A stretch of DNA of 64,000 bases, taken from positions 41,686,607 to 41,750,606 of the forward strand of contig NC_084802.1 in NCBI RefSeq assembly GCF_963169125.1, read 5' to 3'. A program made the translations under genes and the position numbers. This DNA comes from Humulus lupulus (taxonomy: Eukaryota > Streptophyta > Magnoliopsida > Rosales > Cannabaceae). How positions within the stretch are numbered: the first letter of the stretch is position 1; each line of letters begins with the position of its first letter. Below, one piece after another: positions 29,086-64,000 of this stretch. The notes below the pieces were generated by a model. The model saw only the letters and a list, made by a program, of their open reading frames with translations, was not told where the DNA came from and did not search any database.

Positions 29086-30441
29086 TTGGCCAAACTGGCA
29101 AGTGCCAAGGATGTTGACACTCTGAACATAGTGCCAGTTGAACGACTATCTGCACCAAGCATCCAAGCAGAGGAGACCTCTTTGGTGATCCAGGCGGCGA
29201 ATACATGGATGGCACCTTACATAGAGTACCTGACGCAAGGCGTGTTACCGACAGACAGAGACAAAGCCAGGACCCTTCAGCGGCAGGCTGCTAGGTATAT
29301 CTTGGTTGATGAAATCTTGTACCGAAAGGGATACTCAATGCCACTCCTCAGATGTATTTCAAAAGAGAAGACCAAAGAATTGACGAGAGAGGTCCACGAA
29401 GGCTTTTGTGGGGACTATGCTGGGGGGTAGAGTTTATTAAAAAAGATCCTAAGGCAAGGATACTTCTGGCCAACAATGAATGAAGACTCAATGGAATTTG
29501 TACGGAGGTGTGATAAATGCCAAAGGTTCTCCAAAATTCCACGAGCAGCCCCCAATGAGCTAAGGTAGATGCAAAGTCCGTGGCCGTTCGCAGTCTGGGG
29601 TATAGATCTAATCAGATCTCTGCCCATGGGAAAAGGTGGCGTCAAGTACGCCGTAGTGGCCGTCGATTACTTCACTAAATGGGCCGAAGCTGAGCCACTC
29701 GCAACCATAACAACCAAGAAAGTGCTAGATTTCGTGGTCAAAAACATCGTGTGTCGCTATGGATTACCGAGAAAGATTGTCTCAGACAACGACACCCAGT
29801 TTGATAGTGATCTGTTCACGGATTTTTGCAAACGACATGGAATTATCAAGAGCTTTTCTTCAATTGCTCACCCTCAAGCAGACGGACAGGTCGAGGCAGT
29901 CAATAAGACACTAAAAGATACTCTGAAGAAAAAAGTTGAAGAAGCAAAGGGGGCATGGCCAGAACAATTTCCTGAAGTCCTTTGGTCATACAGAACATCC
30001 CATCGAATAGCAACATGTCATACTCCATTTTCCTTGGCCTATGGATATGAGGCTATGCTGCCTGTTGAGCTAGATCCGCCGTTAAATCGAAGAATAACGT
30101 ACGATCAAGGCTCCAATAGCCACCTGTTGATGGAATCTCTAGATTTGGTCAATGAAAAATACGAGAAAGCCCAACTCCGAGTTGCAGCTTACCAGCAAAA
30201 GGTTGCTTGGTATTTCAATTCTAAAGTACGCGAAAGGAAATTCAATGTCGGAGATCTAGTACTTCGAAGGGTTTTCCTTAACACCCGCGGCCAGACTGCT
30301 AGAGTACTCGAATCTAATTGGGAAGGACCGTACTAGATTGAAGAAGTCCTCCATCCACACACTTACAAACTTGCTCGCTTAAATGGAGATCTCATTCCTC
30401 GCTATTGGAATGGAGAACACCTGCGCAAGTACTATCAATAA
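29086..30441 (+). pseudogene. Tat1 integrase
   Basis: Same frame as RT. Zinc site (REVHEGFCGDYAGG, CDKCQRFSKI), core with catalytic Asp (VWGIDLIRSLP), Asp (KIVSDNDTQFDSDL) and Glu (ADGQVEAVNKTLK), then the C-terminal module (FNVGDLVLRRVF; ESNWEGPY) ending LRKYYQ with TAA at 30439. TAG stops at 29428, 29566 and 30334; those at 29428 and 30334 match Gln codons in Tat2. The last residues are nearly those of Tat2 pol. Confidence 0.9.
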
Positions 30442-33805: not shown

Positions 33806-34434
33806 ACAGAGAAGGGGAGATGAGAATCTACGGCCTAAAAACTTGTGTTTAAAAGTTGGAATAACGCTTCTCGTGTATAAAAGTTAAGCTTTTATACGAC
33901 TAACAAAATTCTGACAAAAAACACTTCATTTCAAGCGAACAGTTTGGAAAATGGATTAAAAACAGAATTGTAAAGTTTTTCAGAAAAAACTTTTCGACTT
34001 TGAAAGGGCGGGAAAAACCCAGTTTTTTCTACAAGCTTAGAAATCAAATTTTTACTTCGATTTCACGTCCTAAGTTAAATATCCTGACTAGTGAACTAAT
34101 TCCCCACCCCAGCAGAGTGTCTTTTTCGTACCATATTAAACATCGATCAATATACCTATATATCCCAAAATAGTTTCTGTCAAGAACATGCAAGAACCCA
34201 GGATACGAAACAGATATAAAAGAGATATTGCATGGCACTTCAACGATTGAAAAGGTCGATAAAATTACTTGGATAAAGATTGAAGCAAGGCTCTGAGACA
34301 CTAAGTCGAGTGGTTGGGCAGAAACTCCGTGAATCGATGGAACCGTTTGGGTTTTATGGGCTCTGGGTGTAGAGTTCTTCAGAGTTCTTGAGGAAGAGAA
34401 GATTGGTAAAAAGTGAAAATTAAAAAGAATGGGC
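33806..34434 (-). other. Tat1 antisense 5' leader / intron region
   Basis: Lies between the minus-strand TATA box at 34435 and the antisense start near 33790. An acceptor-like CTCTGTTTGCAG (minus strand) ends just upstream of the ATG, the same arrangement as the 5'-UTR intron of Tat2. The matching donor is not certain (a GTAATT near 34266 is a candidate). Confidence 0.45.
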
Positions 34435-34442
34435 TATTTATA
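34435..34442 (-). promoter_or_regulatory. Antisense TATA box in Tat1
   Basis: Minus strand TATAAATA followed by GCCC, about 213 bases from the 3' LTR and reading away from it towards the antisense gene. Tat2 has TATAAAAA in the equivalent place (52088-52095). Confidence 0.6.
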
Positions 34443-34654: not shown

Positions 34655-35267
34655 TGTTTACCCAAAAATGGCTCCTGGTGACGTGGCAAGAACTTATTAC
34701 ATGTGGTTGTCACGTGGCAACGTCAAAGTGAAGAGGTGTTGTTCGACTATCGACCAGCTCCTTGTTGCTTCATCAGATGTCGCAATTAGAAGCGACCAGT
34801 CTGGTCACATGCTTCAGTTTAATTCCTTAAAGATATGTAATCTTGTAATAACTACATTTATTATTTCCTCTTTATTGTCTTGATACACTGATATTAAGGA
34901 TAATTAAGGCTCATTGGCCCATGTAACCCCCTTGAGCCTATAAATATACGTGAGAGGGCTCAAGGAAGGGACTTTTGAACCTTTTCTCTGAATACTCATA
35001 GAAAGAGTGTAAGTGTGATTATCCACAGAAAAGTTGTAACTCTCCTAAGACTTGTGAAACTCAAGAACCCTAGTTCTCTGATCACGATATTGGGATTCAA
35101 CATTAATAATAACACTAAGTGGACGTAGGTTGTTACCACATTGTTGGGGCCGAACCACTATAAATTACTTGTGTCATTTCTTTACCATTTGATTACATTC
35201 TTGATTGCCTTCTTATTTCTTTGTCGTTAATCTGACCCCGTATCGTTGGCCAAATCGAAGGTCAACG
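34655..35267 (+). repeat. Tat1 3' LTR
   Basis: 613 bp, TGTTTACCC to GGTCAACG (the last base differs from the 5' LTR). TATAAATA at 34939-34946. About 32 substitutions and one 8-bp deletion separate it from the 5' LTR. Confidence 0.9.
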
Positions 35268-37382: not shown

Positions 37383-37866
37383 ACTTGTGCTCTAGGTGAA
37401 ATTTTTTTTCTATAACTGAGAAGTGTGTATGCATATGCTAAACAAAAACTAAAAACATTTATGTGAGTATATAATAGAGATTTGTTGTAAGGACTTCAAA
37501 ATGATGTTTTTTATTTAAGAATAAGGGCAGGAATTTGATTGATGAGATGGGTGGCTATAGCTATGCAATCTGTCTAATATGATAGAGGAATATGTAACTG
37601 GTAAAGCAATGATCTAGCTATATTTAAAATATAATTATTCAAAAAAATATATGTCGATGTTTCCTCTCTACTCCTGAATTTTATTGGGGTATTTCAACAC
37701 ATGAATGGTAATGAGTAATACCAAGAGAGTCAAATAAAATAGGGAATTGTAGTTCTTCAGCATTGTCCGATCCAACAAATTTAATTTTGCATTGAAACTG
37801 AGTTTGAACTAGATTATTGAACATAGGTATAGCTTGTTGTGCTTCAGATTTGGTTCTAAAGAAAAT
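37383..37866 (-). pseudogene. Copia2 integrase core remnant
   Basis: Stop-rich minus-strand sequence between the integrase C-terminal block and the solo LTR. Weak integrase-like pieces only (for example a SMLNHSLFDSL-like stretch). Assigned by position. Confidence 0.45.
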
Positions 37867-38466
37867 TGTGAGATCTTAGTCATCTTCCAAAGTCCAATTA
37901 GACTGCATCACTCAGATTGCAAACATGGCAGTAGTTAGTTGGGCTGAAACTAACTCAATAGCTCACAGTCTCAACAGTCAACAAAGTTGTTATGACTACT
38001 AGCAGTTAGAAGATTTTCAAGCTCTCCAACACTCAACATTTACTATATATAGCCTAAAGTCAGATTGGATTTAAGTTAGACTGTGGTGTTTTCATTGGAT
38101 TCATTGTAGAAAGATTAGAGAGAGTTCATTCGTGAGAATTGAGATGATTCTCATCTGAGCTGAGAGATAGTGTGTTGTGTTCATACATTTAAGTGATCTT
38201 TGAGTGTGTAATATGTTCTTATTGAGATAGTGGATTTGAGTGAGGTTTGCTGCCTCGCCTTGGATGTAGGATCAACCATCATGGTTGATTCTGAACCAAG
38301 TAATCTTGGGTTTTGATTCCTTTGCTTTTCTGTTCATTATCTTTAGTTTTCTTACTGTTTGATACATTATCTTGACTGCGAAACTTGTTGTCTTAACACT
38401 AGAACTTGTGAGTTCTTTGTTTTGGTTTAATGTGATTGAGTATTTGACAAGGTACAATCCTCAACA
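37867..38466 (+). mobile_element. Solo copia LTR (600 bp) inside Copia2
   Basis: Runs TGTGAGATCTTAGTC to ATCCTCAACA and is flanked by a perfect AAAAT duplication (37862-37866 and 38467-38471). It matches the LTR of the copia element at 54936-55616 in reverse orientation: shared blocks include CTATATATAGCCTAAAGTCAG, GGATGTAGGATCAACCATC and CTAGAACTTG. No internal domain accompanies it. Confidence 0.88.
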
Positions 38467-40578: not shown

Positions 40579-41354
40579 TGTACGCCCTGGATTTCCCACG
40601 GGCTGTTTAGCAGGACGATCCTCGGACTAAACATGATTTAGCCCGAGGCTCCCACAGGCCAGAGGCTTTATCTTCAGGACGGGCCCTTTCTAGCTCGAGG
40701 GGATGGAGTTTCCTGCTCCGTCTTGTTGTTCCAGGAGCTGGGAACAACATCCGACGACCACTGAAGGATCAGCTCGGGTTATGGATTGCTCCGGTAGCGA
40801 GCTTCTCAGGAAGCTCTGACCCTATGGGAGGTCAACACGCAAGATAAACGTGCATAATCCTGCCATCACGTGTCCGATATCCCCCTGACTTCTCGGACAC
40901 GCCGCAGGAACGTGCGTATTCAGACACCCACGGATGGGTTGGGCCGTGCGGCCCATTACCTCCTTCCATACTGATTAGACCACACTTGTGTGTCAGGTTT
41001 AGGAAGTAATCATGAATATCAGACTTGATATGACAAATGGTAAGGTCACGGGATGACCTCCCTACCAATTTCCAGGTGCCTTCTCCTATAAATATGGAGA
41101 CCCTGGGAATTGATAGGGGTTGGAAAAAATAGTCTTGTAAGAACTATATATTTTGTAAACCAATTACCCAGAAAAGATCAATAATATTGACTAGTGGAGT
41201 AGAAGGATTTTAACCTTCGAACCACTTAAAAAACGCGTTTAGGGTCACCTAGTTCTTCTCACAAAGATTTCATATATGCGACGGTTCTACTTTCAAGTAC
41301 TAATCTCTCTCTCTTCTTCTCTTAATTACCTGTTGCCGAAGAACCGCGTCAACA
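40579..41354 (+). repeat. Tat2 5' LTR
   Basis: TGTACGCCCTGGATTTCC to GCGTCAACA, 776 bp. TATAAATA at 41087-41094 is the likely sense promoter. Confidence 0.97.
41087..41094 (+). promoter_or_regulatory. Tat2 LTR TATA box
   Basis: TATAAATATGGAG context, about 260 bases from the LTR 3' edge. An identical copy in the 3' LTR lies at 52851-52858. Confidence 0.7.
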
Positions 41355-41357
41355 GTT

Positions 41358-41376
41358 TGGTGCTTTCATTGAGAGC
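41358..41376 (+). other. Tat2 primer binding site
   Basis: TGGTGCTTTCATTGAGAGC, 3 bases inside the LTR. Shared with Tat1 apart from two bases. Primer tRNA not assigned. Confidence 0.75.
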
Positions 41377-41409
41377 GAATCTAATTAGTACTACCACAAA
41401 CATACAACT

Positions 41410-44400
41410 ATGGTGACCACTCGATCCAAACATGGCAACGAGACTGAACAGCATGATGGGCAGGAGGCCCGCCATGTTGCCCTCCCCGAGGAGCAAGTTC
41501 CTGAAGTCCAGCAAAGGCCAGGAAAGCAGCCGGCCGGCCAAGACGACACTGGTAGTTCGGCGCCCCGGCCGCCTAATCCGAATCCATGTTATTATACTGC
41601 GGTGGAGATGGAGAATGCTCAGCTGAGGAGCCAGCTAGCAGCAGCTGGTCAGCAAATCCAGGATATTCTGAGTCGACTACCCCCTATCACAACCAACGGT
41701 AACGTTGGAGAGAGGCAAGGCGAGGCTCCTAAGTCTCGCCGGAGTAATCGATCCAGGCATAGCCGTTCGGGTAGACTCCCTGCAGCCAACTCCACCCCTT
41801 CATCACGCCATCAAGAGGCGAACTTCAGGGAAATGCCTCAGACCGAACAGCAGCAGTACAGCCGTTCGGTTAGGACATCAACCCCTAGCTCTGAGCCTTC
41901 CTCGAGGACGCCCAGAAGAGATCGGGGAAATTCCCAAAGGAGGGCCGAGGGGATCCGGAGACGTCAGCCCGTCCCCGAAGAACGTCCAGTTCCTCGTCCA
42001 GATCGCCCAGCGCGAAACCATCAAGCTGGCAGAGCCGAGAGGCCCCCACCAAATTTAGTCCGTCCAGACGGCACTAGGATCGCCTCTCCGGTCAGACATC
42101 CTCCCTCTCCCATCAGATATCCGTCTCCTCAAACCATCCGAGACATCCCGGCCTACATAAATAGTAGGAGAGACCCGCCATCAGCCGGGCCTTCCCGGCG
42201 CAGCAGGGTGCCGGGGGAAGGATCAGGTCGGGGCCGCCAAAGACGCACATCGAGCCTGTCCAGCAGGAGTCACAGGACCGGTAGTGCACGGAGTGATCTT
42301 TCGGGAGGAGACCTGCGACAGCGACTAAGTTCAGCACAAAGTCACCATAATACCCAGGGAGGCGACCTTCGAGATCGCCTCAACTCTCACAGAGAGGATC
42401 GAGTTAGGGATGGTAGCCAGGCCCGCTCAGTTGGGGTCCGATCCGAAGTACGTAATGGCGGGAATGCCTCAAATGACCTATCTCCAGATAGGAGGGGCAA
42501 TAACCCGCCTAATATGTACAACGGGTCCGGAGCTGTTGAACAGCCCCGGAATAACCCAGGATCTCAGGACAAAACCTTAGAGCGCTTAACTCAAATGGAG
42601 GAGCTGATGAAGAAGCTCCTGTCAGAGAAAGAAAAAGACGAATATGATTCAGGGGATGAGATGGAGCTCTTCGCCCCCAACATAGCAGCAACGGCATACC
42701 CTTCTGGCTTTCGTATGCCTCACTTGTCAAAGTTCAACGGGGATGGAGACCCATCTGACCACTTAGGGATGTTCAACACCCTAATGATGGCTCATAACAT
42801 CGGGCCAGAGCTTCGTTGCTTGATCTTTCCTTCCACCCTAACTGGACCTGCCAGGCAGTGGTTCAAACAAAGTAAAAGGCAGTCAATCAGCTCCTGGAAG
42901 ACCTTTTCGGCTGACTTCAAGAGGGCATTCCGCGCCTCTCAGGCCGCCAGGGTCCAGGCCGACTCCCTAGCTAACGTGAGACAGCAACCTGGAGAAACGC
43001 TAAAAGCCTACTTGAGCAGATTTGCAAATATCGCTGCTCGAGCCAGAGATGCCGACGACAGCTCCAAACTCATGGCTATGAGGACCGGGATCCTAGTAGG
43101 CGGAGATCTGTGGAAGGATATTCAAAGGAGGGGGGTCAGCTCAGTTAGTGAATTCCTTAACAGAGCCCAAGAATGGATAAACTTGGAGGAAGCTGAAGCT
43201 TCAGCCGCGGGGACCAGCCAGGCCCTCGAGAAGCCCGCTGGGGCGGGAACAGAGATCGTAGTAGCGACTCCCGACGTCATGCAAAGCAACCAGCCCGGTG
43301 GCGGCAAAAGAAAAGGAAATGGTGAAAACGTCCAGCACGGTCAAAAGAAGAATAAGTCCGTGGATAAATTCAAGCCCATGTTCACAGCGTATACCGAGCT
43401 CACCCAAACCAGAGAGAATATTTTCCTGGCCAACGCTACGCGAGTCCCCTGGAAAAGACCGGAGCCAATAAAGCACCCTAAGGGAAAGAGAGACGCTTCC
43501 AAATTCTGCCGTTTTCATAACGACGTCGGACACAATACCGACGACTGCAGGCACCTCAAAGATGAAATCGAGACTCTCATCCGAGCAGGTCCGTTGGCGC
43601 AATACTCGCGGAACAGGGTCCCCACAGGTCGACCCGCTCCGGAGATCCCAGCCAGTCAACCTGGACCTCGAGTAGATCAGGACGTCCCTCCCCCCGTGGT
43701 CGAGGGAGAGATTTCCACCATCTCTGGAGGACCACACATGGCTGGCACGAGCAGAGGCGCCCAGAAGAGGTACATAAATGAGTTGAAGGCCCACAATGGA
43801 GGGGAGTTCGTCCCGGAACAGCGTCAATCAAAACAACAAAGGTTAGAGAAACAACCAGTCACTTTCACGGAGGAGGACGCGGGCCATGTCCAATTCCCTC
43901 ATAACGATCCCTTGGTCGTAGCAGTCCAGCTCGCCAACCGAAGAGTAAGGAGGGTGTTAGTGGACAATGGGAGCTCGGTGAATCTCCTATTCCGTTCAAC
44001 CTTAGAAAAAATGGGTCTGACCGTCTCCGAGCTAAAGGCAACCTCGATGATGCTATATGGTTTTTCAGGCGAAGGGTCAGCAGCGATAGGAACGATCGAG
44101 CTGGTGATCACTCTAGGCGACGAGTCCCGAACAGTGTCCAAACTGCTCGAATTCGTAGTCATTGACTGCTCCGCTGCCTACAATGCAATTTTGGGCCGAC
44201 CAACGCTCGTTGCTTTCGAAGCCATCACATCCGTCCGGCACCTCGCCATGAAGTTCCCTACTTCGACAGGGGTCTGCACTATCAAGGGCGATCAGCTCGC
44301 TGCCAGGGAATGCTACAGCATTTCCATGAAGGGAAAATCTAAACCCGGGCAGGTGGCGATGGCCATTCAGGATGAAGAGGAATCGCAGGGACCCAAGGCG

Positions 44401-47400
44401 GCCCCTGAGATTGAAAAACCTCGGGTTTCCGAAGACGAAAAGCTCGCCTTAAGCGAGGACATTGACCCCCGAGTAGGCGAGGACAGGTCCGAGCTCCAAG
44501 CTATTGAAGATCTCGAGGAGGTAGGCATCGATGAACAAAACCCTTCACGGACGGTGAAGCTCGGAAAGAACCTCTGCGATAGAAGAAAGGCGGATCTGAC
44601 CGCGTTTCTGAAAAAGAACCTAGACGTATTCGCATGGTCGCACGAGGACATGATAGGGATCAGTCCGAGCGTAATCATGCACACGCTCCACCTAGACAAA
44701 AGCGTCCCTGCAAAGTCTCAAAAGCAGAGGCGTTTAGGGACAACCCGAGCCGAGGCCCTTGAAGAAGAAGTGGCCCGGCTCAAGAAATGTGGCTTTATCC
44801 GCGAAGCCAGATTTCCCATTTGGGTTGCCAATCCCGTGTTAGTTCCAAAGCCCAATGGCAAGTGGCGGACCTGTATTGATTTTTCCGACCTGAATAAAGC
44901 CTGCCCCAAGGATTGCTTTCCGTTGCCGAGGATCGATCAACTGGTGGATGCCACGGCGGGGCACGAGCTCATGTCCTTCATGGACGCGTACTCGGGCTAC
45001 AATCAGATCGCGATGAATCCAGCAGACCAGGATCACACCAGCTTCATGACCCCGACTAATGTCTATTGCTATAAGGTCATGCCGTTCGGTCTAAAGAACG
45101 CCGGAGCTACCTACCAAAGGCTGGTAAATAGAATGTTCGCGGATCAGATCGGGAAGAACATGGAAGTGTACGTCGATGATATGCTTGTCAAGTCAAAGAC
45201 TGCCACCAACCACGTTGCCGACCTGGAAGAATGTTTTAACATACTGCGAGAATATGGCATGAGGCTCAATCCTCAGAAATGCACTTTCGGTGTCGCATCG
45301 GGGAAGTTCTTGGGTTTCATAGTCAATACCCGAGGAATCGAGGCAAATCCCGACAAGATCAGGTCACTGCTCGAGCTTCCATCCCCCAGGTCGCGGAAAG
45401 ATGTCCAAGGACTCACAGGAAGGGTGGCGGCACTGAACCGGTTCATTTCCAAATCGACCGACAAGTGCCTGCCTTTCTACAACCTGCTCCGCGGAAACAA
45501 GAAGTTCGAATGGACAGTAGAGTGCGAGGGCGCATTCCTCGACCTAAAAACGCACCTGGCTGAGCCACCTGTGCTATCAAAGCCCAGGGTAGGAGAACCT
45601 CTTTTCCTCTACATGGCCGTGACTGAGGACGCAGCTAGTGCCGTTCTGGTACGAGAAGAGGACCGGGCTCAGAGACCGGTTTATTACATCAGCAAGAGAC
45701 TCCTCGGAGCTGAGTCAAGGTACCCGTTGATGGAAAAGCTGGCGTTCTGCCTAATCACGGCCTCGCGAAAACTCAGGCCATACTTCCAGTCCCACTCTGT
45801 ACACGTCATGACCGATCAGCCTCTAAGGCAGGTTTTGCAAAAGCCTGAAGCCTCGGGACGCTTGCTAAAGTGGGCGGTCGAACTCAGTCAGTTCGAGATT
45901 TTCTATACTCCCCGAACTACCATAAAAAGTCAAGCCTTGGCCGACTTCGTGGCAGAATGCGCGGGATTCCGTGAGATCCCATCAGAAGATTCACAGCAGC
46001 TCACATCCTCAGGCTCATCGTGGAGGATCTTCGTTGACGGCTCATCTAACGAGAACGGCTCCGGGGCCGGAATTATTCTGATATCCCCAGAAGGACATAG
46101 ATTCCATTCGGCGCTGAGATTCGGGTTCAAGGCGTCCAACAACGAGGCAGAGTACGAGGCCTTGTTAGCCGGACTTAGGATAGCTAGCGAGCTAAAGGCA
46201 AGCTCTGTCCAGTGCTTCAGCGACTCCCAGCTCGTGGTGAATCAGGTCTTAGGCGAGTATCAGGCGCGGGGACCCAAGATGGCCTCTTATTTGGCTAAGG
46301 TAAAATCCGAATTATCTATGTTTGGGCAAGGGTCGATCGAGCAGATACCTAGAGAGCAGAACGCCAATGCAGATGCTCTCGCCAAGCTTGCCACCTCGGG
46401 GGAGGCAGAAACCCTGGGGTTGGTGCCAATTGAGTTCTTGGACAAACCAAGCATAGACGGAGATCGAGCGGATATTGAGGTGATTGACATCAGGCCGACC
46501 TGGATGACTCCCATTGTTGAGTACCTCGTCGAGGGCAAGTTACCCGAAGGGCGCAACGACGTACGGCGAGTCCTTTATCAAGCCCCGAGATATACGCTAG
46601 TCGAGGGGGTGTTGTACCGACGTGGGCATTCATTACCTCTCCTCCGGTGTGTTCTTCCAAGTGAGGCGAAGGCCATCCTGCAGGAAGTTCATGACGGATT
46701 CTGCGGAGATCATACTGGGGGGCAAAGCCTGGCCTTGAAGATCCTTCGGCAGGGTTTTTACTGGCCGACTCTGTCCAAAGACTCGATCTCATACGTAAAA
46801 AAGTGCGACAAATGTCAGCGGTTCGCCGCGGTTGCACGAGCACCCCCGACCGAGCTAAAAATGATATCGTCTCCCTGGCCCTTCGCCATTTGGGGCATAG
46901 ATCTAATAGGCGCCCTGCCCACCGGAAAGGGCGGGGTCCGTTACGCCGTGGTAGCCATTGACTACTTCACAAAGTGGGCCGAAGCAGAGCCGTTGGCGAC
47001 AATAACATCGAAAAAGGTGCTAGACTTCGTGGTTAAAAGCATCGTTTGTCGCTTCGGCCTACCCAAAAAGATCGTTTCCGACAATGGCACTCAATTTGAC
47101 AGCGACCTGTTCACCGAATTTTGCGAAAAGAACGGAATTGTGAAAAGTTTCTCATCCGTGGCCTATCCCCAGGCGAACGGCCAGGTCGAAGCTGTCAATA
47201 AAACTCTGAAGGCAAGCCTCAAGAAGAGGCTAGATGAGGCAAAGGGGATCTGGCCAGAACAGCTCCCCCAAGTTCTGTGGGCCTATAGGACCTCACATCG
47301 GACTCCCACGGGTCACACTCCTTTCTCCCTAACCTTTGGAAGTGAAGCGGTCCTCCCCGTGGAGGTAAAGGTCCTATCGCACAGGGTCCGGTCCTACGAA

Positions 47401-47736
47401 CAGAACAAGAACCACGAGCTCCTATGCCACTCCTTAGACTTGATGGATGAGAGGCGAGAGGATTCACAACTCCAGCTCGCCCATTATCAACAGAAAATCA
47501 CTCGCTACTTTAACGCTAAGGTCAAAAGACGTGCCTTTAGCGTCGGCGATTTGGTCTTGAGGAGAGTTTTCCTGGCCGGGAAAGATCCCAAAGATGGGGT
47601 TCTGGGACCAAGCTGGGAAGGACCATACCAGGTCATCGAAGTCATCAAAGAAGGGACGTATAAATTAGCTCGACTCGGTGGAGGGGCGATCCCGCGGACT
47701 TGGAATGCAATCCACCTAAAGAAATATTATCAATAA
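41410..47736 (+). CDS. Tat2 Gag-Pol polyprotein, 2108 residues, intact
   Basis: ATG 55 bases after the LTR, TAA at 47734. Order: Arg/Ser/Pro-rich basic leader (1-400); Gag core from F442 (FNGDGDPSDHLGMFNTL, TGPARQWFKQ, LKAYLSRF) to about 600; zinc motif KFCRFHNDVGHNTDDCRHL at 698-716; protease with DNGSS at 852-856; RT with YVDD at 1254-1257; RNase H with D1543, E1579, D1605 and D1655; integrase zinc site, then catalytic D1831, D1891 and E1927, a perfect D-D-35-E spacing; C-terminal module ending in LKKYYQ. The protein would be cut by its own protease to give capsid, RT/RNase H and integrase. All catalytic residues I looked for are present. Gag and Pol share one frame with no stop. GC content is higher than in the surroundings. 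Frames overlapping it on either strand are incidental. Confidence 0.96.
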   Translation: MVTTRSKHGNETEQHDGQEARHVALPEEQVPEVQQRPGKQPAGQDDTGSSAPRPPNPNPCYYTAVEMENAQLRSQLAAAGQQIQDILSRLPPITTNGNVGERQGEAPKSRRSNRSRHSRSGRLPAANSTPSSRHQEANFREMPQTEQQQYSRSVRTSTPSSEPSSRTPRRDRGNSQRRAEGIRRRQPVPEERPVPRPDRPARNHQAGRAERPPPNLVRPDGTRIASPVRHPPSPIRYPSPQTIRDIPAYINSRRDPPSAGPSRRSRVPGEGSGRGRQRRTSSLSSRSHRTGSARSDLSGGDLRQRLSSAQSHHNTQGGDLRDRLNSHREDRVRDGSQARSVGVRSEVRNGGNASNDLSPDRRGNNPPNMYNGSGAVEQPRNNPGSQDKTLERLTQMEELMKKLLSEKEKDEYDSGDEMELFAPNIAATAYPSGFRMPHLSKFNGDGDPSDHLGMFNTLMMAHNIGPELRCLIFPSTLTGPARQWFKQSKRQSISSWKTFSADFKRAFRASQAARVQADSLANVRQQPGETLKAYLSRFANIAARARDADDSSKLMAMRTGILVGGDLWKDIQRRGVSSVSEFLNRAQEWINLEEAEASAAGTSQALEKPAGAGTEIVVATPDVMQSNQPGGGKRKGNGENVQHGQKKNKSVDKFKPMFTAYTELTQTRENIFLANATRVPWKRPEPIKHPKGKRDASKFCRFHNDVGHNTDDCRHLKDEIETLIRAGPLAQYSRNRVPTGRPAPEIPASQPGPRVDQDVPPPVVEGEISTISGGPHMAGTSRGAQKRYINELKAHNGGEFVPEQRQSKQQRLEKQPVTFTEEDAGHVQFPHNDPLVVAVQLANRRVRRVLVDNGSSVNLLFRSTLEKMGLTVSELKATSMMLYGFSGEGSAAIGTIELVITLGDESRTVSKLLEFVVIDCSAAYNAILGRPTLVAFEAITSVRHLAMKFPTSTGVCTIKGDQLAARECYSISMKGKSKPGQVAMAIQDEEESQGPKAAPEIEKPRVSEDEKLALSEDIDPRVGEDRSELQAIEDLEEVGIDEQNPSRTVKLGKNLCDRRKADLTAFLKKNLDVFAWSHEDMIGISPSVIMHTLHLDKSVPAKSQKQRRLGTTRAEALEEEVARLKKCGFIREARFPIWVANPVLVPKPNGKWRTCIDFSDLNKACPKDCFPLPRIDQLVDATAGHELMSFMDAYSGYNQIAMNPADQDHTSFMTPTNVYCYKVMPFGLKNAGATYQRLVNRMFADQIGKNMEVYVDDMLVKSKTATNHVADLEECFNILREYGMRLNPQKCTFGVASGKFLGFIVNTRGIEANPDKIRSLLELPSPRSRKDVQGLTGRVAALNRFISKSTDKCLPFYNLLRGNKKFEWTVECEGAFLDLKTHLAEPPVLSKPRVGEPLFLYMAVTEDAASAVLVREEDRAQRPVYYISKRLLGAESRYPLMEKLAFCLITASRKLRPYFQSHSVHVMTDQPLRQVLQKPEASGRLLKWAVELSQFEIFYTPRTTIKSQALADFVAECAGFREIPSEDSQQLTSSGSSWRIFVDGSSNENGSGAGIILISPEGHRFHSALRFGFKASNNEAEYEALLAGLRIASELKASSVQCFSDSQLVVNQVLGEYQARGPKMASYLAKVKSELSMFGQGSIEQIPREQNANADALAKLATSGEAETLGLVPIEFLDKPSIDGDRADIEVIDIRPTWMTPIVEYLVEGKLPEGRNDVRRVLYQAPRYTLVEGVLYRRGHSLPLLRCVLPSEAKAILQEVHDGFCGDHTGGQSLALKILRQGFYWPTLSKDSISYVKKCDKCQRFAAVARAPPTELKMISSPWPFAIWGIDLIGALPTGKGGVRYAVVAIDYFTKWAEAEPLATITSKKVLDFVVKSIVCRFGLPKKIVSDNGTQFDSDLFTEFCEKNGIVKSFSSVAYPQANGQVEAVNKTLKASLKKRLDEAKGIWPEQLPQVLWAYRTSHRTPTGHTPFSLTFGSEAVLPVEVKVLSHRVRSYEQNKNHELLCHSLDLMDERREDSQLQLAHYQQKITRYFNAKVKRRAFSVGDLVLRRVFLAGKDPKDGVLGPSWEGPYQVIEVIKEGTYKLARLGGGAIPRTWNAIHLKKYYQ

Positions 47737-47924
47737 ACATGTGTAAGACCTAGAAGGTCACCTCCCATGTATAAATAAAAATCAAATGTTTCTCGTTATT
47801 TGCAAGGGTAATTTTAAAGTAACAACGAAAGACCCTTTCCCAGTTACTTGGGGGGCATATGGTACCCGGATATATCCAGGTCTCCTTAACGACTTAGGTG
47901 TTAATTTTTATCTATGGATAAGAG
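47737..47924 (+). other. Tat2 pol 3' spacer with internal polypurine tract
   Basis: ACTTGGGGGGCA at 47846-47857, 110 bases after the pol stop, followed by TATGGTACCCGG. The same core occurs next to the 3' LTR (52330-52342) and in the equivalent place in Tat1 (30769-30780). It could act as a second plus-strand primer or mark a former element end. Confidence 0.65.
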
Positions 47925-48540
47925 TTATCACAAACTAAGTCCTATCCTGGTCTTAACCAGGTCATAAAACTTAGAAGTTAGCTAAAATTTGTTGACCGAG
48001 GTTCTTCTTTAAAGAGCCCGGGATACGGATAAAAGTTGACACGAACTAAGTTTTTTCAAAATAAGTTCCTGGTCTTAACCAGGTCATAAAACTTAGAAGT
48101 TAGCTAAAATTTGTTGACCGAGGTTCTTCTTTAAAGAGCCCGGGATACGGATAAAAGTTGACACGAACTAAGTTTTTTCAAAATAAGTTCCTGGTCTTAA
48201 CCAGGTCATAAAACTTAGAAGTTAGCTAAAATTTGTTGACCGAGGTTCTTCTTTAAAGAGCCCGGGATACGGATAAAAGTTGACACGAACTAAGTTTTTT
48301 CAAAATAAGTTCCTGGTCTTAACCAGGTCATAAAACTTAGAAGTTCGCTAAAATTTGTTGACCGAGGTTCTTCTTTAAAGATCCCGGGATACGGATAAAA
48401 GTTGACGCGATCTGAGTTTTTTTTAAAATAAGCTCCTGGTCTTAACCAGGTCAGAAAGCTTAGGAGTGAACTAGAAAATTGTTGAACGCGGATCTTATTT
48501 AAAGAGCCCGGGATACGGATAAAGTTATCTCGAACTACGT
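47925..48540. repeat. 122-bp tandem repeat in Tat2 3' region
   Basis: Five copies, seen from CCTGGTCTTAACCAGG at 47946, 48068, 48190, 48312 and 48435 (spacings 122, 122, 122, 123). The middle copies are almost identical and the outer ones more diverged. Each contains the inverted repeat CCTGGT-CTTA-ACCAGG and a GAGCCCGGGATACGGATAA block. Tandem arrays in this position are known in plant Tat elements and can seed satellites. Confidence 0.93.
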
Positions 48541-49216
48541 TCATAAAAATAAAGAGATAAATTATGACCAAATACATGAAAATATATATGTAAAACTGGT
48601 TGAGCAAATTGTCTCGAGGCGGAAACGCCTCACATAAAAAAGAGAATTACAATAAAAAAAAAAGAAGAGTTCAAAATACGAAAACGAGAAGCATCCTAAG
48701 CCCCATCAGCTGGCCCTTTGGAGGTCGCGGTCTCACCCTGCTCCGCCGCGGCAGAAGCCTCTCCAGTCTCCGATGGAGGAGCCTCCTTATTCAGGCGGGC
48801 TTGAAGCCGCGGCAACAGGAATGCCCAGAGGTCCGGCGGCATGAAGGAGAAGTCCGCGTCCGGATTGTGGGACCAGCAGTGATAGAATAGGTCCTGTAAG
48901 GACTGCTCCGACACGACCCGTTCGTCTTTCAGGGCGATCTGGGAGGTCTGGCCTTCGCCACCTCAAGGTCTGCCCGCGATGCGGCCAGGGAGTTTTTAAG
49001 CTCTAGGTTCTCGGAGCGAAGCTTCTCTAGCTCGGATGCGGCCAGGGAGCGTTTAAGCTCTTGGTTCTCCGAGCGGACCTTCTCTAGCTCGGCTTTTGAG
49101 GCCGCCAAGGCGTCTCTCGCCTCCTGAGACTCCTGGAGGGCAGTCTGGCGATCTGCTTCCAAACCCTCGAGCTGGGCCTTGGTCCTGACGATGCCTCTAT
49201 AGGCGGCAGCCATGCC

Positions 49217-49302
49217 CTGCAAGAAAAGAGTGATAAATTAGCAAACTGGAAGGAGAAAGGCGGCGTGTGAGTGTCAAAGCCTTAAAAGAAGGGGCACTTT
49301 AC
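49217..49302 (-). other. Antisense intron 4 (86 bp)
   Basis: Minus strand ACG followed by GTAAAGTG, ending CTTTTCTTGCAG before GGCATGG. It joins phase 0 to phase 0 and keeps the frame. Confidence 0.75.
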
Positions 49303-49766
49303 CGTTAAAGTCATGTCCATAGCGGACTCTATAACTCGGACCGGGCTCGTTGTTTCGATGGCCCGGAGCTCCTTCTCCCTGATATTGTAATAGTGGCTGA
49401 CGGCGTAGCTGGCCGACTCGTACACTGTACCCCGGAATGCTTCGGGCATCTTCTCCAGAGCCCGGGGGTCGACCGGGATACGCACGTCCGGGGCTACCGC
49501 GGCCTAATTCCCGACCTCTATTACCCCGTCCTGGGCGGCCAGTGGAGATCGTTGGGGTGGCGGATGCATGAGTCCTGTCCTGGCGACAGGAAGGTTCGCC
49601 CCCGCGACCTGGGATGACGGGTCTCTCCCCTTCTCCGTAGCTGGGGATTTGGTGGAGACCCCGGTCGAGCTCTTGGACTCGCGAAGCCTCTTTAACCTCG
49701 GCCCCGCTGGGGGATTCCCACCAAACACAACGCCCCGCAGACTATTCCCGGGCTGAGACATCTCTT

Positions 49767-49848
49767 CTGCCAAAGAGCAAAAAACACGGTTATCAGCAAT
49801 CATACAGAAATAAAGGCAATAAGAAAGAAAATACTAAGGGAGCCCTAC
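49767..49848 (-). other. Antisense intron 3 (82 bp)
   Basis: Minus strand donor GGGG followed by GTAGGG, acceptor TCTTTGGCAG before AAGAGATG, T-rich interior. The upstream exon leaves one base and the next supplies two, so the frame is kept. Confidence 0.75.
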
Positions 49849-50577
49849 CCCCCGAGCTGGAAGAGCCTAGGACGATTATCTCACGAACTGGCGAAGGTTC
49901 TAGGTCCGGTTCTGAATCGGGGCTGGACTCTTCTACGTACTGCCTAATCCCCGGAGCGTAGACGCCCCTCTGGAGCGCAGGCCACGTGCGTAAATTGGTC
50001 CCGTACTCCTCAAAAATGGCCGACCTAAAGGCTAGGGTATTATCTACTACTACGGTACCCTTGGGCCGACTCTCTTGGTTGTCCAGCACGAGCTGGTCAA
50101 CGCAGTGGAGCAGAAGCGTGTCCAGGTTCGGATTCCTTGGGTGACGATGGACGAGCTGCCTAGGGTTGAACCTAACCAGCCGGGGGTCTGCAGTGGCCCT
50201 ATCTACGTTCTTAAACAAGTAAAAATTACCTTGACCGGAAGGACCCGCGGCTGCTCCGGATTGGGCCCTCTCCTCGATCATCCCCTGGGCGACCTCCAAG
50301 CTCCGCTTCCTGTTCCTCACCAGAGGAACTTCCTCACCTTCTTCCTCGCCTTCGTCATCTGCGACCTCCTCCGCGGCGATCGGCCTGTTGTCGCGGGCTG
50401 GGGGAGGCCCCCGGGGCCTTTTCAAATTCAAAGTCTGATTTGGGAAAATCAGCTTGCAGAATACCATCGTCTCGTCCGTCACGAGCACGCGGTAGTCTTT
50501 CTCACTGGGAGGCAGGTTCGCCAGTGTGTCGTATTGACCCCCGAGGGTCACGGACTTTTCGGTCCTCGAGTAGATGG

Positions 50578-50667
50578 CTGCAAGGTTGGTCGAAATCAGA
50601 ATTGGAATAAGGGACGGGCTAAAATAAGATAACCGTTAAAAGGCGAGCTAAATGGAGGATTACTTAC
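50578..50667 (-). other. Antisense intron 2 (90 bp)
   Basis: Minus strand CCCTC followed by GTAAGTAAT, acceptor CAACCTTGCAG before CCATC. One base plus two bases rejoin a codon exactly. Without it the reading stops shortly after 50660. Confidence 0.8.
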
Positions 50668-51348
50668 GAGGGCGGTTGAAATAATGATGATCGCAGTTTC
50701 GGAACCCAGTAGACATAAAAAACTGGTCTTTTAAGTCGTTTGGATGGCTCGGCAGCTCAATCACTGTTGCTGTGTTAGGGAAGCGGGTTAAGTAATAGAA
50801 CCCGTCGCCTCGCCCCCGCTGGTCCGGGCTGGCTTTGAGGCAGAAGAAGTACAAGATATCAGCAGGAGTGGGGACCTCCCACTCATGCTTTTGGAACAAA
50901 TACCTCAGTCCCGCCAGCAGACGGTAGGAATTGGGGGGGAGCTGAAATGGGGCCAACCCCACGTAGTTCAGAAAATCAGCAAAATACTGATCCAGGGGGA
51001 GGAAGGCCCCTGCCTTGAAGTGTTCCCCGCTCCAGGCCGCGAACGACTCGTCGAGCGGCGTGCAGCTCCTCTCCCCATCCGCAGCAGGTCGGGCGATCAC
51101 GGAGGTCTTCCCCAGAGGAATGTTGTGGTTAAGGAAGATTTTGATGATCTTTGCCTGGCTGGTTATCTTCGAGACGATTCTCTCCGCCTCGAAAAACGCG
51201 TCAGGAGCCACCTCGGCCTGCTTCTCCACCGCCGGTCCAAAATGAGGAATTGGCGAGCTGGTCACCACCGCCTTTCCTTTATCCTTCTGGGAGGCCAAAC
51301 TTCCCACATTCTTCTGTGGCAGATTTCTCTTTGGAGCCATCTGGTCGC

Positions 51349-51863
51349 CTATCGAGCAAAAGAAAAACACTTTAGAAAAGGCGACCCAAGCAGGAGAGTG
51401 AGGCAGACATTAAGGACACGAGCTGGGGTAAGCCCAGCCCGTGGAGAGTGGTGCCACGCGTTCCAAGGAACACGCGCCTATGCCCTCAACAGATCCCAGA
51501 TTACTCGGAATTCGTGTGTCAGATGGCTCAGAGTAAGAAAAAAATAAAAAATAAAAATTTTGCCTTGGGGGGAAAGTTTCAACAGGCAAGGCGTGGCAAA
51601 ACCGCTTTTAAGGCGTATTCCCTAAGCTACCCGGTTTTTGCACCCAAAGTTCCTACGGATCCTACCAGAAATTGTTCCTAAGAAAGAATCATGGAACCCA
51701 TGTTCTAAGGCGATGTCCCATGGCAAATGTGCCCTAATCAAAGAAGGGCCATCACCCTCCATATCCGCGCGACCCAGAAAACCTCTGCATGTGGCTACAG
51801 TAAAATTTTTTACCTAGGCTACAGTGGCATGCTTTCAAAAATAAATGGGGACAGAAGACTTAC
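51349..51863 (-). other. Antisense intron 1 (515 bp, 5' UTR)
   Basis: Minus strand TATACT followed by GTAAGTCTTCT (strong donor), ending TTTTGCTCGATAG eight bases before the ATG at 51340. The segment has no long reading and includes AT-rich patches. Acceptor choice is less certain than in the coding introns. Confidence 0.6.
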
Positions 51864-52060
51864 AGTATAGGGTTGGATGGTGAGCGAGGTTGCTGCGCGG
51901 GTAGGGGCTTCGTTGGCACAGTAATCTCCAAGGCCTTGAAGGAACTCGCACGCTTAAGCTTCGTGAACGGAGAAGATGAGAGCAATGGAAGTGAGGGTTT
52001 TGCTCTTCGGAAGGTCAGAGAGAAAAGAAGGAAATTTGAGAGGTTCTGAATGGTAAGGTG
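51864..52060 (-). other. Antisense exon 1 (5' UTR), predicted
   Basis: Between the expected start about 30 bases below the TATA box at 52088 and the donor at 51863. Contains a CT/GA-rich leader. Transcription start is inferred only. Confidence 0.45.
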
Positions 52061-52087
52061 GTCCATGCGTGGGATGACCACCCCCTT

Positions 52088-52095
52088 TTTATACA
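52088..52095 (-). promoter_or_regulatory. Antisense TATA box in Tat2
   Basis: Minus strand TATAAAAAGGGGG, about 250 bases inside the 3' LTR, directed at the antisense gene. A CACGTG element (ACGTG core, G-box) occurs nearby at 52107-52112 on the upstream side. Confidence 0.62.
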
Positions 52096-52329
52096 AGGGG
52101 GGATCACGTGTAAAAGGCTCCTGGGAGACCCTCCACTCGAAATGTGAAACGACGGCTGGACAGTAGGTTAGGCCATTTAATGCGGTTCTCGTAGAATGTA
52201 CCGTCGCCACCCGCGGCGTTCCACGTATCAGACGCATGCGAAAAGCATGGAATGCGAAGGGTTGTGGGAGAAGTCTAAAAGCTCCAACTGTGGTCTCCCA
52301 TGTCTGACGTCATGTACCACGAGCAGGAG

Positions 52330-52342
52330 CTTGGGGGGCAGA
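52330..52342 (+). other. Tat2 3' polypurine tract
   Basis: CTTGGGGGGCAGA directly before the 3' LTR TGTACGCCC. Same core as the internal copy at 47846. Confidence 0.88.
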
Positions 52343-53118
52343 TGTACGCCCTGGATTTCCCACGGGCTGTTTAGCAGGACGATCCTCGGACTAAACATGA
52401 TTTAGCCCGAGGCTCCCACAGGCCAGAGGCTTTATCTTCAGGACGGGCCCTTTCTAGCTCGAGGGGATGGAGTTTCCTGCTCCGTCTTGTTGTTCCAGGA
52501 GCTGGGAACAACATCCGACGACCACTGAAGGATCAGCTCGGGTTATGGATTGCTCCGGTAGCGAGCTTCTCAGGAAGCTCTGACCCTATGGGAGGTCAAC
52601 ACGCAAGATAAACGTGCATAATCCTGCCATCACGTGTCCGATATCCCCCTGACTTCTCGGACACGCCGCAGGAACGTGCGTATTCAGACACCCACGGATG
52701 GGTTGGGCCGTGCGGCCCATTACCTCCTTCCATACTGATTAGACCACACTTGTGTGTCAGGTTTAGGAAGTAATCATGAATATCAGACTTGATATGACAA
52801 ATGGTAAGGTCACGGGATGACCTCCCTACCAATTTCCAGGTGCCTTCTCCTATAAATATGGAGACCCTGGGAATTGATAGGGGTTGGAAAAAATAGTCTT
52901 GTAAGAACTATATATTTTGTAAACCAATTACCCAGAAAAGATCAATAATATTGACTAGTGGAGTAGAAGGATTTTAACCTTCGAACCACTTAAAAAACGC
53001 GTTTAGGGTCACCTAGTTCTTCTCACAAAGATTTCATATCTGCGACGGTTCTACTTTCAAGTACTAATCTCTCTCTCTTCTTCTCTTAATTACCTGTTGC
53101 CGAAGAACCGCGTCAACA
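52343..53118 (+). repeat. Tat2 3' LTR
   Basis: 776 bp, identical by eye to the 5' LTR except C at 53040 for A at 41276. Followed by TAAAG. Confidence 0.97.
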
Positions 53119-54935: not shown

Positions 54936-55616
54936 TGACGATTGAGGATTGAACCCTGTAAAATACTCAATCACAGTAAAACAAAACAAAGAACTCTGCA
55001 AGTTCTAGTGTTAAGACAACAAGTTTTGCAGTAAAGACAATGTATCAAACAGTAAGAAAACTAAATGTAAAAGAAAATGAACACCTAAGAATACTTGGTT
55101 CGAAATCAACAAAGATGGTTGATCCTACATCTAAGGTGAGGCAACAAGCCTTAGTCAAATCCACTATCTCAGTAAGAACAGATTACACCCTTAAAGATCA
55201 CTCAAGTGTATGAGCACAATACACTTTCTCTTTCAGCTCAATCCACTATCTCAGTAAGAACAGATTACACCCTTAAAGATCACTCAAGTGTATGAACACA
55301 ATACACTTTCTCTTTCAGCTCACTCAAGAATCCTCAAAATTCTCACAAATGAACTCTCTCAAATCTCTCTACAATGAATCCAGTGAATACACCACAGTCT
55401 AACCTAAATTCAATCTGACTTTAGGCTATATATAGTAGATGATGAGTGTTGGAGAGCTTTTGAATCTTCTAACTGACTTCAAGTAGTCATAACAGATTTG
55501 ATGGTTGTTGAGACTGTGAGCTGATGAGTTAGTTTCAGCCTAACTAACTACTGCCATGTTGGCAATTCGAGTGATACAATATGATTGGGGCTTTGGATGA
55601 TGACTCAGATCTCACA
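54936..55616 (-). repeat. 3' LTR of a minus-strand copia element (Copia3)
   Basis: Minus strand TGTGAGATCTGAGTC to CCTCAATCGTCA, 681 bp. Homologous to the solo LTR at 37867-38466; the extra length is an 82-bp tandem duplication. On the inner side the minus strand has a purine tract (AAGGTGGAGAAT), so this is the downstream LTR. The 5' part of the element would lie beyond the window, right of the nested Tekay insertions. Confidence 0.85.
55159..55322. repeat. 82-bp tandem duplication in Copia3 LTR
   Basis: ATCCACTATCTCAGTAAGAAC starts at 55159 and again at 55241. The two copies differ at about one base (GAGCACA versus GAACACA), so the duplication is recent. The solo LTR at 37867 has a single copy. 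Confidence 0.92.
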
Positions 55617-55692
55617 ATTCTCCACCTTGAGTCAGCAATCCAAAGTTTGAGGATGAATATTAGGTTCTGCTGCCTTACTTCCTGTTGCTGCG

Positions 55693-57762: not shown

Positions 57763-58770
57763 TGTAACGTCCCAAATTACCTAATAAGTCTTAGGGCCTT
57801 GATTAGGGGGCCAGGATGGAAAATTATGGAAATTGTGTGATATATATGTGTATCATTATATGATTGTGTGAGTTATATTATAATATGACTTGATATACAT
57901 GTTTAGGTGTATTAAATATGCATGTGGGCCCATTTCTGATGAAAATGGCAATTTTCCTAATTTGGCCTGTTATGGGTATATTTGGCATATCTGTGATATT
58001 TGTGTGGGACCACATTATTATGTGGATATATTTGGGTTACTCGGCACGAGACGATCCTAGGGAGCAAGCTAGTGGGAAAGTCACAACAGGACCCATATTT
58101 GACTCGATGTGAGTCAATGGGTATATTGGGTAATGAGAATAAATATTTGATGATATATTGGGAGTTAGTGATATTAGGAGGGAATTCTGGGCATTTTGAC
58201 TATTTGGCCCAAGGGGACGTTTTTGGGACCCCGAGCATTAGGATTTTCTTGAGGTTACTTAAGCTCGAAGTAACCTGTCAGAAATAAAAAGAACGTTCAT
58301 TTAAGTTCTCTCTCTCCCATTCTCTTTTTGGCGTTCGATAGCATTTTCGAAGAAAACTTGAGTTTTAGGACTCAGATTCAAGCAATGATCTAGTTATATT
58401 GATTCTAGGGAGATTAGAAGCTTGATAGTTGGAGGATTTAGGTCGGAAACTACGTAATCAGAGGTAATCCAAGCTTTAAGTTCTAAGTTTTAAGTTTCTT
58501 AAGTTTGATTGGATTTTTGTGTTTTGATGAGTTTTTGATTGAATTGTAACTTGAGTTTTGATGGTTTTCGACTGTTGAGTTGTTTGGGAACTTTGTTTTT
58601 GGGATTTGGATAGGTTTGGATAGGTTTTTGCAAGGGGAAAACGAAGGAAAATCTGGGTTTTCATGTCGAGTCGCGGCTGTATTCTTGTGGCGCCACGACT
58701 CAAATCGGTAGAAGGAGAAGGAGGTGCCAAAGGGCTATCGTCACTAAAGACAAGCTCCACTCAGGGTATG
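57763..58770 (+). repeat. 5' LTR of second Tekay element, 3' part unclear
   Basis: Aligns with 62564-63600 through the blocks GTGGGCCCATTTCTGAT, GACGATCCTAGGGAGCAAGC and GTCGCGGC. After about 58740 the resemblance to the 3' LTR is lost, so the rest of the LTR seems deleted or replaced; the true 3' edge was not found. Confidence 0.75.
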
Positions 58771-62563: not shown

Positions 62564-64000
62564 TGTAACGTCCCAAATTACCTAATAAGGCTTAGGACCT
62601 TGATTAGGGGGCCAGGATGGAAAATTATGGAAATTATGTGATTATATGATATATATGTGTATCATTATATGATTATGTGAGTTATATTATAATATGACTT
62701 GATATGCATGTTTAGGTGTATTAAATATGCATGTGGGCCAATTTCTGATTAAAAGGGCAATTTTCGTAATTTGGCCTGTTATGGGTATATTGGGCATATT
62801 TGTGATATATGTGTAGGACCACATTATTATGTGGATATATTTGGATTACTCGACACGAGACGATCCTAGGGAGCAAGCTAGTGGGAAAGTCACAACGGGA
62901 CCCATATTTGACTCGGTGCGAGTTAAGGGGTATATTGGGTATTTAGTACATTACTGGGATATTGGCTAATGAGAATAAATATTTGATGATATTTTGGGAG
63001 TTAGTGAGATCAGGAGGGAAATATGGGAATTTTGACTATTTGGCCCCCAAGGACGTTTTTGGGACCCCGAGCATTAGGATTTGCTTGAGGTTACTTAAGC
63101 TCGAAGTAACCTATAAGAAATAAAAATAACATTCAGTTAAGTTCTCTCTCTCCCAATTTCTTTTTGGAGTTCGATAGCATTTTCAAAGGAAACTCGAGTT
63201 TTAGGACTCAAATTCAAGCAAGGATCGAGTTATAACGATTCTAGGGAGATTAGAAGCTTGATAGCCGGAGGATTTAGCTCGGAAACTACATAATCAGAGG
63301 TAATCAAAGCTTTAAGTTCTAAGTTTTGAGTTTCTTAAGATTGATTGGATTTTTGTGTTTTGATGAGTTTTCTATTGAATTGTAACTTGAGTTTTGATGG
63401 TTTTCAGCTGCGGAGTTGTTTGGTAACTTTGTTTTTGGGATTTGAATAGGTTTGGATAGGTTTATGGAGGGATTTGGCAAGGGGAAAAAAAAGGAAAATC
63501 TGGGTTTTCATGTCGAGCCGCGACCCTATTATTGGGGCGCTGCAACTCAAATCAGTCGAATGAAAAGGAGGTGGCAAAGGGTTATTGGCGCTGCGGCGCC
63601 TGCTAGGGTGAGCCACGACGCTTGGGTAGAGAGAGAAGAGGCTCAAGCCTCTGACTTGAGCAAGCCAAGACTCAAATGTTTAGGGGCCACGATGCTTAAG
63701 GGATTTTGGGCCTTCGGGAGGATTTGAGTACGGGAACTCAAACCTAAAGGCTCGAGATCGATCCTACTACTTGGTTTAGTAGGATTCGATGTCTCGGAGG
63801 CTAGGACTCGGTCTAGAAGTCTTTATTTACTCATTTTGATGGGATTTTATATTATGGTTATGACTAGGTTATCGCTAGGGGCTCGGAATCAGGATCGTGG
63901 TCGAGGGTCGTTCATTGGTAACCTGTGCTTGGACCAAAGGTAAGAAAACTGCACCCAGTATGTGATACATGTGATTATGGCATGGCCTAAATGTTAAATA
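62564..64000 (+). repeat. 3' LTR of second Tekay element (incomplete at window end)
   Basis: TGTAACGTCCCAAATTACC onward, at least 1437 bp. Contains a GC-rich GGCGCTGCGGCGCC block (63590-63602). Its end at 63700-64000 is the reverse complement, with differences, of 57050-57380. Confidence 0.88.

Follow-up and report, generated by a model that had tools for sequence, protein, structure and literature searches.

A conserved antisense gene with four putative introns in a young Retand-like retroelement of hop

Introduction

How a retroelement may carry an ordinary spliced gene is the question raised by a 64,000-nucleotide stretch of hop (Humulus lupulus) contig NC_084802.1 (positions 41,686,607 to 41,750,606 of the forward strand; hereafter the window), as retroelements copying through spliced RNA lose introns. 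The window contains Tat2, a Ty3/gypsy element, for which an initial annotation had described, on the strand opposite to gag-pol, a complete gene with a TATA box, a leader intron and three short coding introns. The best explanation of the whole is that this is an antisense accessory gene of the Retand type, which is spliced and used by the element, a reading to which a probability of about three in four is assigned. The genome sequence shows the anatomy of the gene, its conservation, the selection on its exons and the lack of spliced copies, and from it transcription, splicing and a nuclear role are inferred.

Structure of the antisense gene

The antisense gene of Tat2 contains four introns of 515, 90, 82 and 86 nt on the minus strand (Table 1), which coincide with those of the initial annotation. 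All are of the GT...AG type, with the donors GTAAGT, GTAAGT, GTAGGG and GTAAAG for introns 1 to 4, including the GTAAGT donor claimed for the leader intron. Splice sites were judged by direct inspection together with phase and codon checks, and not by automatic spliced alignment. When the ATG at 51340 is taken as the start, the three coding introns follow codon 224 in phase 1, codon 467 in phase 1 and codon 622 in phase 0. These phases rejoin the reading frame as had been claimed, and no others do: phase 1 is the sole phase without a stop on either side of introns 2 and 3, as is phase 0 for intron 4. An unspliced reading runs into a stop shortly past the donor of each coding intron. The TATA box of the earlier description was found at 52093 and is preserved in all 40 genomic copies compared below. 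The leader intron contains eight ATGs in 38 of these copies and nine in the other two, and the spliced leader contains none in 37 copies and one in three.

Conservation and selection among genomic copies

The genome searched comprises 2.48 Gb in 121 contigs, and the 40 copies compared, including that of the window, are the 40 that were scored out of 5,830 candidates for exon 1, so that at least 40 copies are present; diversity in exon 1 is biased low, as the copies were picked by similarity in this exon. The donor GT of introns 1 to 4 is kept in 40, 40, 39 and 40 of the 40 copies, respectively (the intron 3 donor being deleted in one copy), the acceptor AG is kept in 40/40 at each of the four introns, and the start ATG is likewise found in every copy. 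The comparison of intron positions in other copies, which had been put forward as a check, thus found GT/AG retained in 39-40 of 40.

Variants shared by at least two copies were counted in the window and 20 of the 39 other copies. The antisense gene contains 11 nonsynonymous and 16 synonymous shared variants (omega-like ratio 0.32), as compared with 10 and 17 (0.28) in one 2.8-kb piece of pol from the same 21 copies, where L052 is without 818 bases. With 35 of the 40 copies, which omits L009, L011, L015, L019 and L023 owing to deletions or frameshifts, the ratio for shared variants is 0.34, and with exon 1 excluded it is 0.35; all ratios are uncorrected for methylated-CpG bias. The shared coding variants show purifying selection on the antisense exons, close to that on pol.

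Counterparts in diverged relatives

Tat1, another Tat-type element of the window with a gag-pol region (25244-30438) 36-60% identical to that of Tat2, contains an antisense gene related to that of Tat2 (31% identity in exon 1, E 1e-21). Its TATA box is at 34442, and a leader intron of 469 nt is followed by three short ones (78, 96 and 78 nt), in the order seen in Tat2. In both elements the ATG lies 6-8 nt past the leader intron, and exon 1, counted from the aligned ATG, ends one base after codon 224, which places intron 2 at codon 224 in phase 1. Tat1 introns 2 and 3 have both sides open in phase 1 only (about 60 codons upstream and 49 downstream), and intron 4 is open upstream in phase 0 only (60 codons tested). 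The multiple alignment including Tat1 was used for codon counts only; past the first part of exon 1 it is wrong, as Tat1 is decayed and the hop database protein P0001, also aligned, is without exon 1.

Tat1 spans 14350-35266, with LTR (long terminal repeat) pieces at 14350-14969 and 34655-35266 that are 94% alike. Another element splits it, with direct repeats of about 2.15 kb that are 95% alike (15558-17708 and 22600-24728) and a minus-strand stretch similar to pol (17999-20471).

A third subfamily was identified by a search with P0001, which gave at least 253 matches from 81 scored candidates; among the matches listed, those that run exon by exon break near residues 219-225 and 362-378 of P0001. 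This subfamily was compared through one piece, L068, which contains introns 3 and 4 (84 and 72 nt) at the positions and in the phases of Tat2. Identity between Tat2 and L068 in these two introns (0.51 and 0.46) is at the level of shuffled sequence (mean 0.485 and 0.445), whereas the end of exon 2 and exon 3 reach 0.71 and 0.60, compared with 0.41 and 0.44 after shuffling. The ratio of nonsynonymous to synonymous divergence (dN/dS) between Tat2 and L068 is 0.23 over 203 codons, with a dS of 1.74 that is close to saturation.

Homologous in-phase introns are thus present in the diverged relatives Tat1 and L068, the exception being the downstream side of Tat1 intron 4. The splice sites exceed what chance would give, as they are retained from copy to copy, are found again in two diverged subfamilies and lie between exons under purifying selection, and a spliced-gene architecture is, as far as sequence can tell, very likely.

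These comparisons bear on two other explanations. The antisense transcript may work as RNA, either as a source of double-stranded and small interfering RNA or by transcriptional interference, with the reading frame being incidental, and a review (PMC7264820) raises RNA-level action for antisense genes of this kind; it is nevertheless unlikely here, in view of the constraint on the frame (the dN/dS between subfamilies and the omega-like ratio of shared variants given above) and of the recurrence of coding-intron phase in diverged families. Recent capture of a host gene, to which the possession of introns, unlike most retroelement genes, might point, is very improbable, as homologues with matching introns occur in three diverged subfamilies of the same genome and as TRP28 antisense genes are known from Retand elements of both eudicots and monocots (PMC11963269, accessible text).

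Hop proteins in the database

A profile search found 39 proteins at E 0.01, or 40 with P0003, comprising 30 named hop proteins and 10 unnamed ones. In exons 2-3, P0001 matches at 52% identity over 47% of the query and P0002 at 51% over 41%. The junction of intron 4 is crossed without a gap by 21 of the 30 named hop proteins, and seven of the 30 pass gap-free across intron 3 into exon 3, P0031 and P0032 doing so from an earlier place in exon 2. P0024, P0031 and P0032 are hop gene models that join exons away from the conserved junctions, which may represent either alternative splicing or model errors. Automatic spliced alignment was set aside, since the run with P0001 put the intron 4 acceptor in the wrong place and overlooked intron 3, the one with P0002 set intron 3 wrongly, and the method also inserted short false introns and failed to extend through Tat1.

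The unnamed set (P0005, P0011, P0013, P0014, P0016, P0018, P0020, P0021, P0023 and P0027; contigs of about 0.7-1.4 kb) looks like reading frames that were called from short stretches of genomic DNA, either of hop or of a close relative. None of the ten crosses an intron junction in frame, and they were rejected as possible transcripts: nine continue beyond the donor of intron 3, and the remaining one ends before it.

Several separate antisense open reading frames (ORFs) in place of one spliced gene are hardly probable. The Retand survey counts TRP28 and Smc-type antisense ORFs separately (PMC11963269, accessible text) and the hop gene models are fragmentary, both of which would suit such an arrangement, but conserved splice sites link the exons in phase, most named hop proteins cross intron 4 as noted above, and the leader intron and TATA box are situated at exon 1.

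The retroelement gene is matched by the 30 hop entries named 'uncharacterized protein LOC...', P0001-P0004, P0006-P0010 and P0012 among them. This suggests that about 30 'uncharacterized' hop database proteins are parts of such elements, which bears on hop gene counts.

Evidence against a spliced gene in use

Several observations weigh against a spliced antisense gene used by the element. The copy in the window is broken, and the gene is not complete there as the initial annotation had it: the joined frame hits an in-frame TAG in coding exon 3, and the last exon is frameshifted and runs to a stop at 48931-48929, while the frame shared by relatives ends at 48698-48696. Both lesions are private to this copy, the TAG being absent from the other 39 copies, all of which also differ from the window at the frameshift site by a number of bases not divisible by three. 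In-frame stops occur in 12 of the 40 copies and frame-breaking or large deletions in three more (L009, L019 and L023), giving 15 interrupted copies and 25 uninterrupted in the codons examined, a count that leaves out about 30 bases around the frameshift site. Among singletons the omega-like ratio is 0.73 in the antisense gene compared with 0.56 in pol, indicating weaker constraint in the former; the contrast between singletons and shared variants is on its own not significant (Fisher p 0.06). The short introns are no more diverged than exons 2-4 among close copies, for which reason intron-versus-exon divergence within the family was dropped as a test (divergence figures omit L009, L015 and L019).

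The diverged relatives also contain discordant features. Downstream of Tat1 intron 4 the open frame differs from the phase 0 frame, and Tat1 intron 3 is in phase 0 when counted through from exon 1, which implies an internal frame change in exon 2 of the decayed Tat1. Between Tat2 and L068 the start of exon 4 has identity at the shuffled level, and L068 carries one in-frame stop. Among the named hop proteins, gap-free crossing is lacking at intron 4 in nine of the 30 and at intron 3 in 23, some of them ending short of it. As judged by their LOC-style names, these proteins are probably automatic gene models, so their junctions count as support and not as independent proof. The PF04195 (TRP28) match in coding exon 1 (E 3.4e-5, 24.4 bits) is slightly under the curated cut-off of 26.2, and a Pfam scan of two Tat1 exon 1 pieces did not list PF04195.

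A decaying passenger, in which the splice sites and reading frames are leftovers no longer in use, would account for the broken copy in the window and for the 15 interrupted copies. It is nevertheless quite improbable: the window lesions are private, 25 copies are uninterrupted in the codons examined and present elsewhere in the genome, and the shared variants are constrained about as those of pol, which disfavours it.

Retention of introns and proposed function

Junction patterns were searched genome-wide with up to 3 mismatches allowed. No genomic copy of the spliced junction was found for any of introns 1 to 4, whereas the unspliced donor junction occurs 396 times for intron 2, 1,696 times for intron 3 and 363 times for intron 4; the unspliced intron 2 junction of Tat1 has 86 matches. 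Against virtually spliced copies the same spliced patterns have no more than one mismatch in 40, 40, 39 and 40 of 40. The earlier proposal that antisense orientation shields the introns from removal is supported by these counts. Intron-bearing copies without spliced ones fit copying through sense RNA only, and the lack of such junctions in the genome speaks neither for nor against the splicing of antisense RNA.

In the proposed scheme, the antisense gene would be transcribed from its own TATA promoter, situated between the gene and the 3' LTR. Excision of the leader intron would strip eight upstream ATGs, and excision of the three short coding introns would yield a family protein of about 800 codons, whose N-terminal region resembles TRP28/PF04195 and whose C terminus is coiled-coil-like. 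The element would replicate through sense genomic RNA, where the introns read CT...AC and would be no substrates for splicing, and for this reason they would last through rounds of retrotransposition.

Use of the protein by the element is probable. It may act in the nucleus as an accessory factor, assisting or regulating the element in the manner of the antisense genes of some retroviruses, as TRP28 is predicted to bind DNA (PMC11963269, accessible text) and as the gene23 protein is nuclear (cited in PMC7264820); a nuclear or regulatory role in particular is put forward only tentatively. The Pfam matches to coiled coils in the C-terminal part are weak, unspecific and all below cut-off, and a protein search with residues 1-270 alone found nothing at E 1e-3. 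A structure prediction of coding exon 1 (three rows) had a mean predicted local distance difference test (pLDDT) score of 36 and was not used for fold searches.

The conserved four-intron antisense gene, with shared variants about as constrained as those of pol, would be an example of a retroelement that carries a spliced gene of the ordinary kind.

The host element and other features of the window

Classification of Tat2 as a young Ty3/gypsy element of the Tat/Retand kind is supported. Its LTR pair differs by one mismatch over 776 bp and is accompanied by the target-site duplication (TSD) TAAAG, in agreement with the young age initially ascribed to it, and the insertion is presumably about 50,000-100,000 years old, an order of magnitude that assumes general plant substitution rates. 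A Pfam scan of the 2115-aa frame gives the domain order gag, protease, reverse transcriptase, ribonuclease H (RNase H), second RNase H and integrase, where the protease match (23.9 bits) is slightly under the curated cut-off of 24.3 and no chromodomain is listed at E 0.1. A second RNase H between RNase H and integrase is a hallmark of Tat elements, and in Tat2 the RT_RNaseH models at residues 1375-1502 are followed by RVT_3 at 1549-1668 as the second RNase H before the integrase. The region from pol to the 3' LTR (47737 to 52342, 4,606 bp) houses the tandem repeat array and the minus-strand gene.

Inverted repeats at 37861-38464 and 54942-55622, which are 84-86% alike and about 17 kb apart, lie on either side of Tat2, and the element seems to have landed within a larger inverted-repeat structure. 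Direct repeats of about 1 kb at 57763-58738 and 62564-63585 (88% alike) are possibly the LTRs of another element.

Table 1. Window coordinates of Tat2, its antisense gene and the Tat1 counterpart.
Feature	Coordinates	Strand	Remarks
Tat2, whole element	40579-53118	+	Ty3/gypsy, Retand-like; TSD TAAAG; 12.5 kb
Tat2 5' LTR	40579-41354	+	776 bp; 99.87% identity to 3' LTR
Tat2 gag-pol	41389-47736	+	Single open frame, 2115 codons stop to stop
122-bp tandem repeat array	47823-48549	+	Between pol and antisense gene; as described for Retand elements
Tat2 3' LTR	52343-53118	+	776 bp
TATA box of Tat2 antisense gene	52081-52093	-	52095-52083 identical in 40/40 copies
5' leader exon	51864-52063	-	Start inferred about 30 nt past TATA box
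Intron 1 (leader intron)	51349-51863	-	515 nt; GT and AG in 40/40 copies; counterpart in Tat1
Coding exon 1	50668-51348	-	ATG at 51340 (40/40 copies); contains PF04195/TRP28-like stretch
Intron 2	50578-50667	-	90 nt, phase 1; Tat1 counterpart at same codon number and phase
Coding exon 2	49849-50577	-	Exons 2-3 match hop proteins P0001 and P0002
Intron 3	49767-49848	-	82 nt, phase 1; same place in L068, same phase in Tat1
Coding exon 3	49303-49766	-	In-frame TAG 49506-49504, window copy alone (1/40)
Intron 4	49217-49302	-	86 nt, phase 0; recovered exactly by spliced alignment of P0003
Last coding exon	48696-49216	-	Coiled-coil-like; frameshift near 48950, window copy alone (1/40)
Tat1 antisense gene, intron 1 donor to intron 4 acceptor	31764-34268	-	Introns 34268-33800, 32973-32896, 32371-32276, 31841-31764
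Tat1 coding exon 1, first part	33251-33793	-	ATG 33793, open to stop 33250-33248

Comparison with known systems

HBZ of human T-cell leukaemia virus type 1 (HTLV-1) is a spliced antisense gene in an LTR retroelement replicating via sense RNA, and Ogre is a plant element of the Tat clade. The antisense gene of Tat2 would share with HBZ the combination of a spliced antisense gene and a sense-replicating LTR element, and differs in that HBZ starts in the 3' LTR and belongs to a retrovirus; spliced antisense HBZ transcripts are the subject of reference titles in PMC5237517. In Ogre, the intron between gag-pro and reverse transcriptase has sense orientation and is removed from only some of the transcripts (PMC6317226, accessible text), so that this plant element likewise contains an intron, in sense orientation where those of Tat2 are antisense. 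The maize Grande gene23, as cited in PMC7264820 and PMC11963269, is an antisense accessory gene with its own upstream promoter, encoding a nuclear protein, and the Tat2 gene would resemble it in strand, accessory character and promoter.

The closest counterpart is the TRP28 gene of Retand elements. Their survey describes antisense ORFs in all representative elements, finds TRP28 in 97% of clusters and counts 11 Smc domains among the antisense ORFs, where ORFs of at least 600 bp were taken separately (PMC11963269, accessible text). The Tat2 gene agrees with it in its place between pol and the 3' LTR, its strand and the tandem repeats of the region, and probably also in its domain, and the 4,606 bp of Tat2 fall within the range of 2,933-6,566 bp that the survey reports for the distance from pol to the 3' LTR. 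An antisense ORF at this location is thus a known feature of the lineage, as the initial annotation had stated. The word 'intron' is absent from the main texts of PMC11963269 and PMC7264820, the latter of which urges attention to antisense and spliced transcripts, and none of the papers listed by literature searches describes introns in these antisense genes in its title or abstract opening, a coverage outside which key older papers fall. As far as the open papers go, the four-intron architecture is new, in a gene that is itself of known lineage. It suggests that ORF-by-ORF antisense surveys may have split one gene into pieces, and it is conceivable, at somewhat less than even odds, that the separate antisense ORFs known from Retand elements of flowering plants, with TRP28 in one and Smc-type domains in others, all belong as exons to a single ancient gene that has one leader intron and three coding introns. 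In that case this LTR retroelement lineage would have a permanent accessory gene with introns, which last because the antisense orientation conceals them from the RNA that replicates. The elements of the survey are described through unspliced ORFs, whereas in Tat2 the TRP28-like and coiled-coil-like parts would be exons of one four-intron gene.

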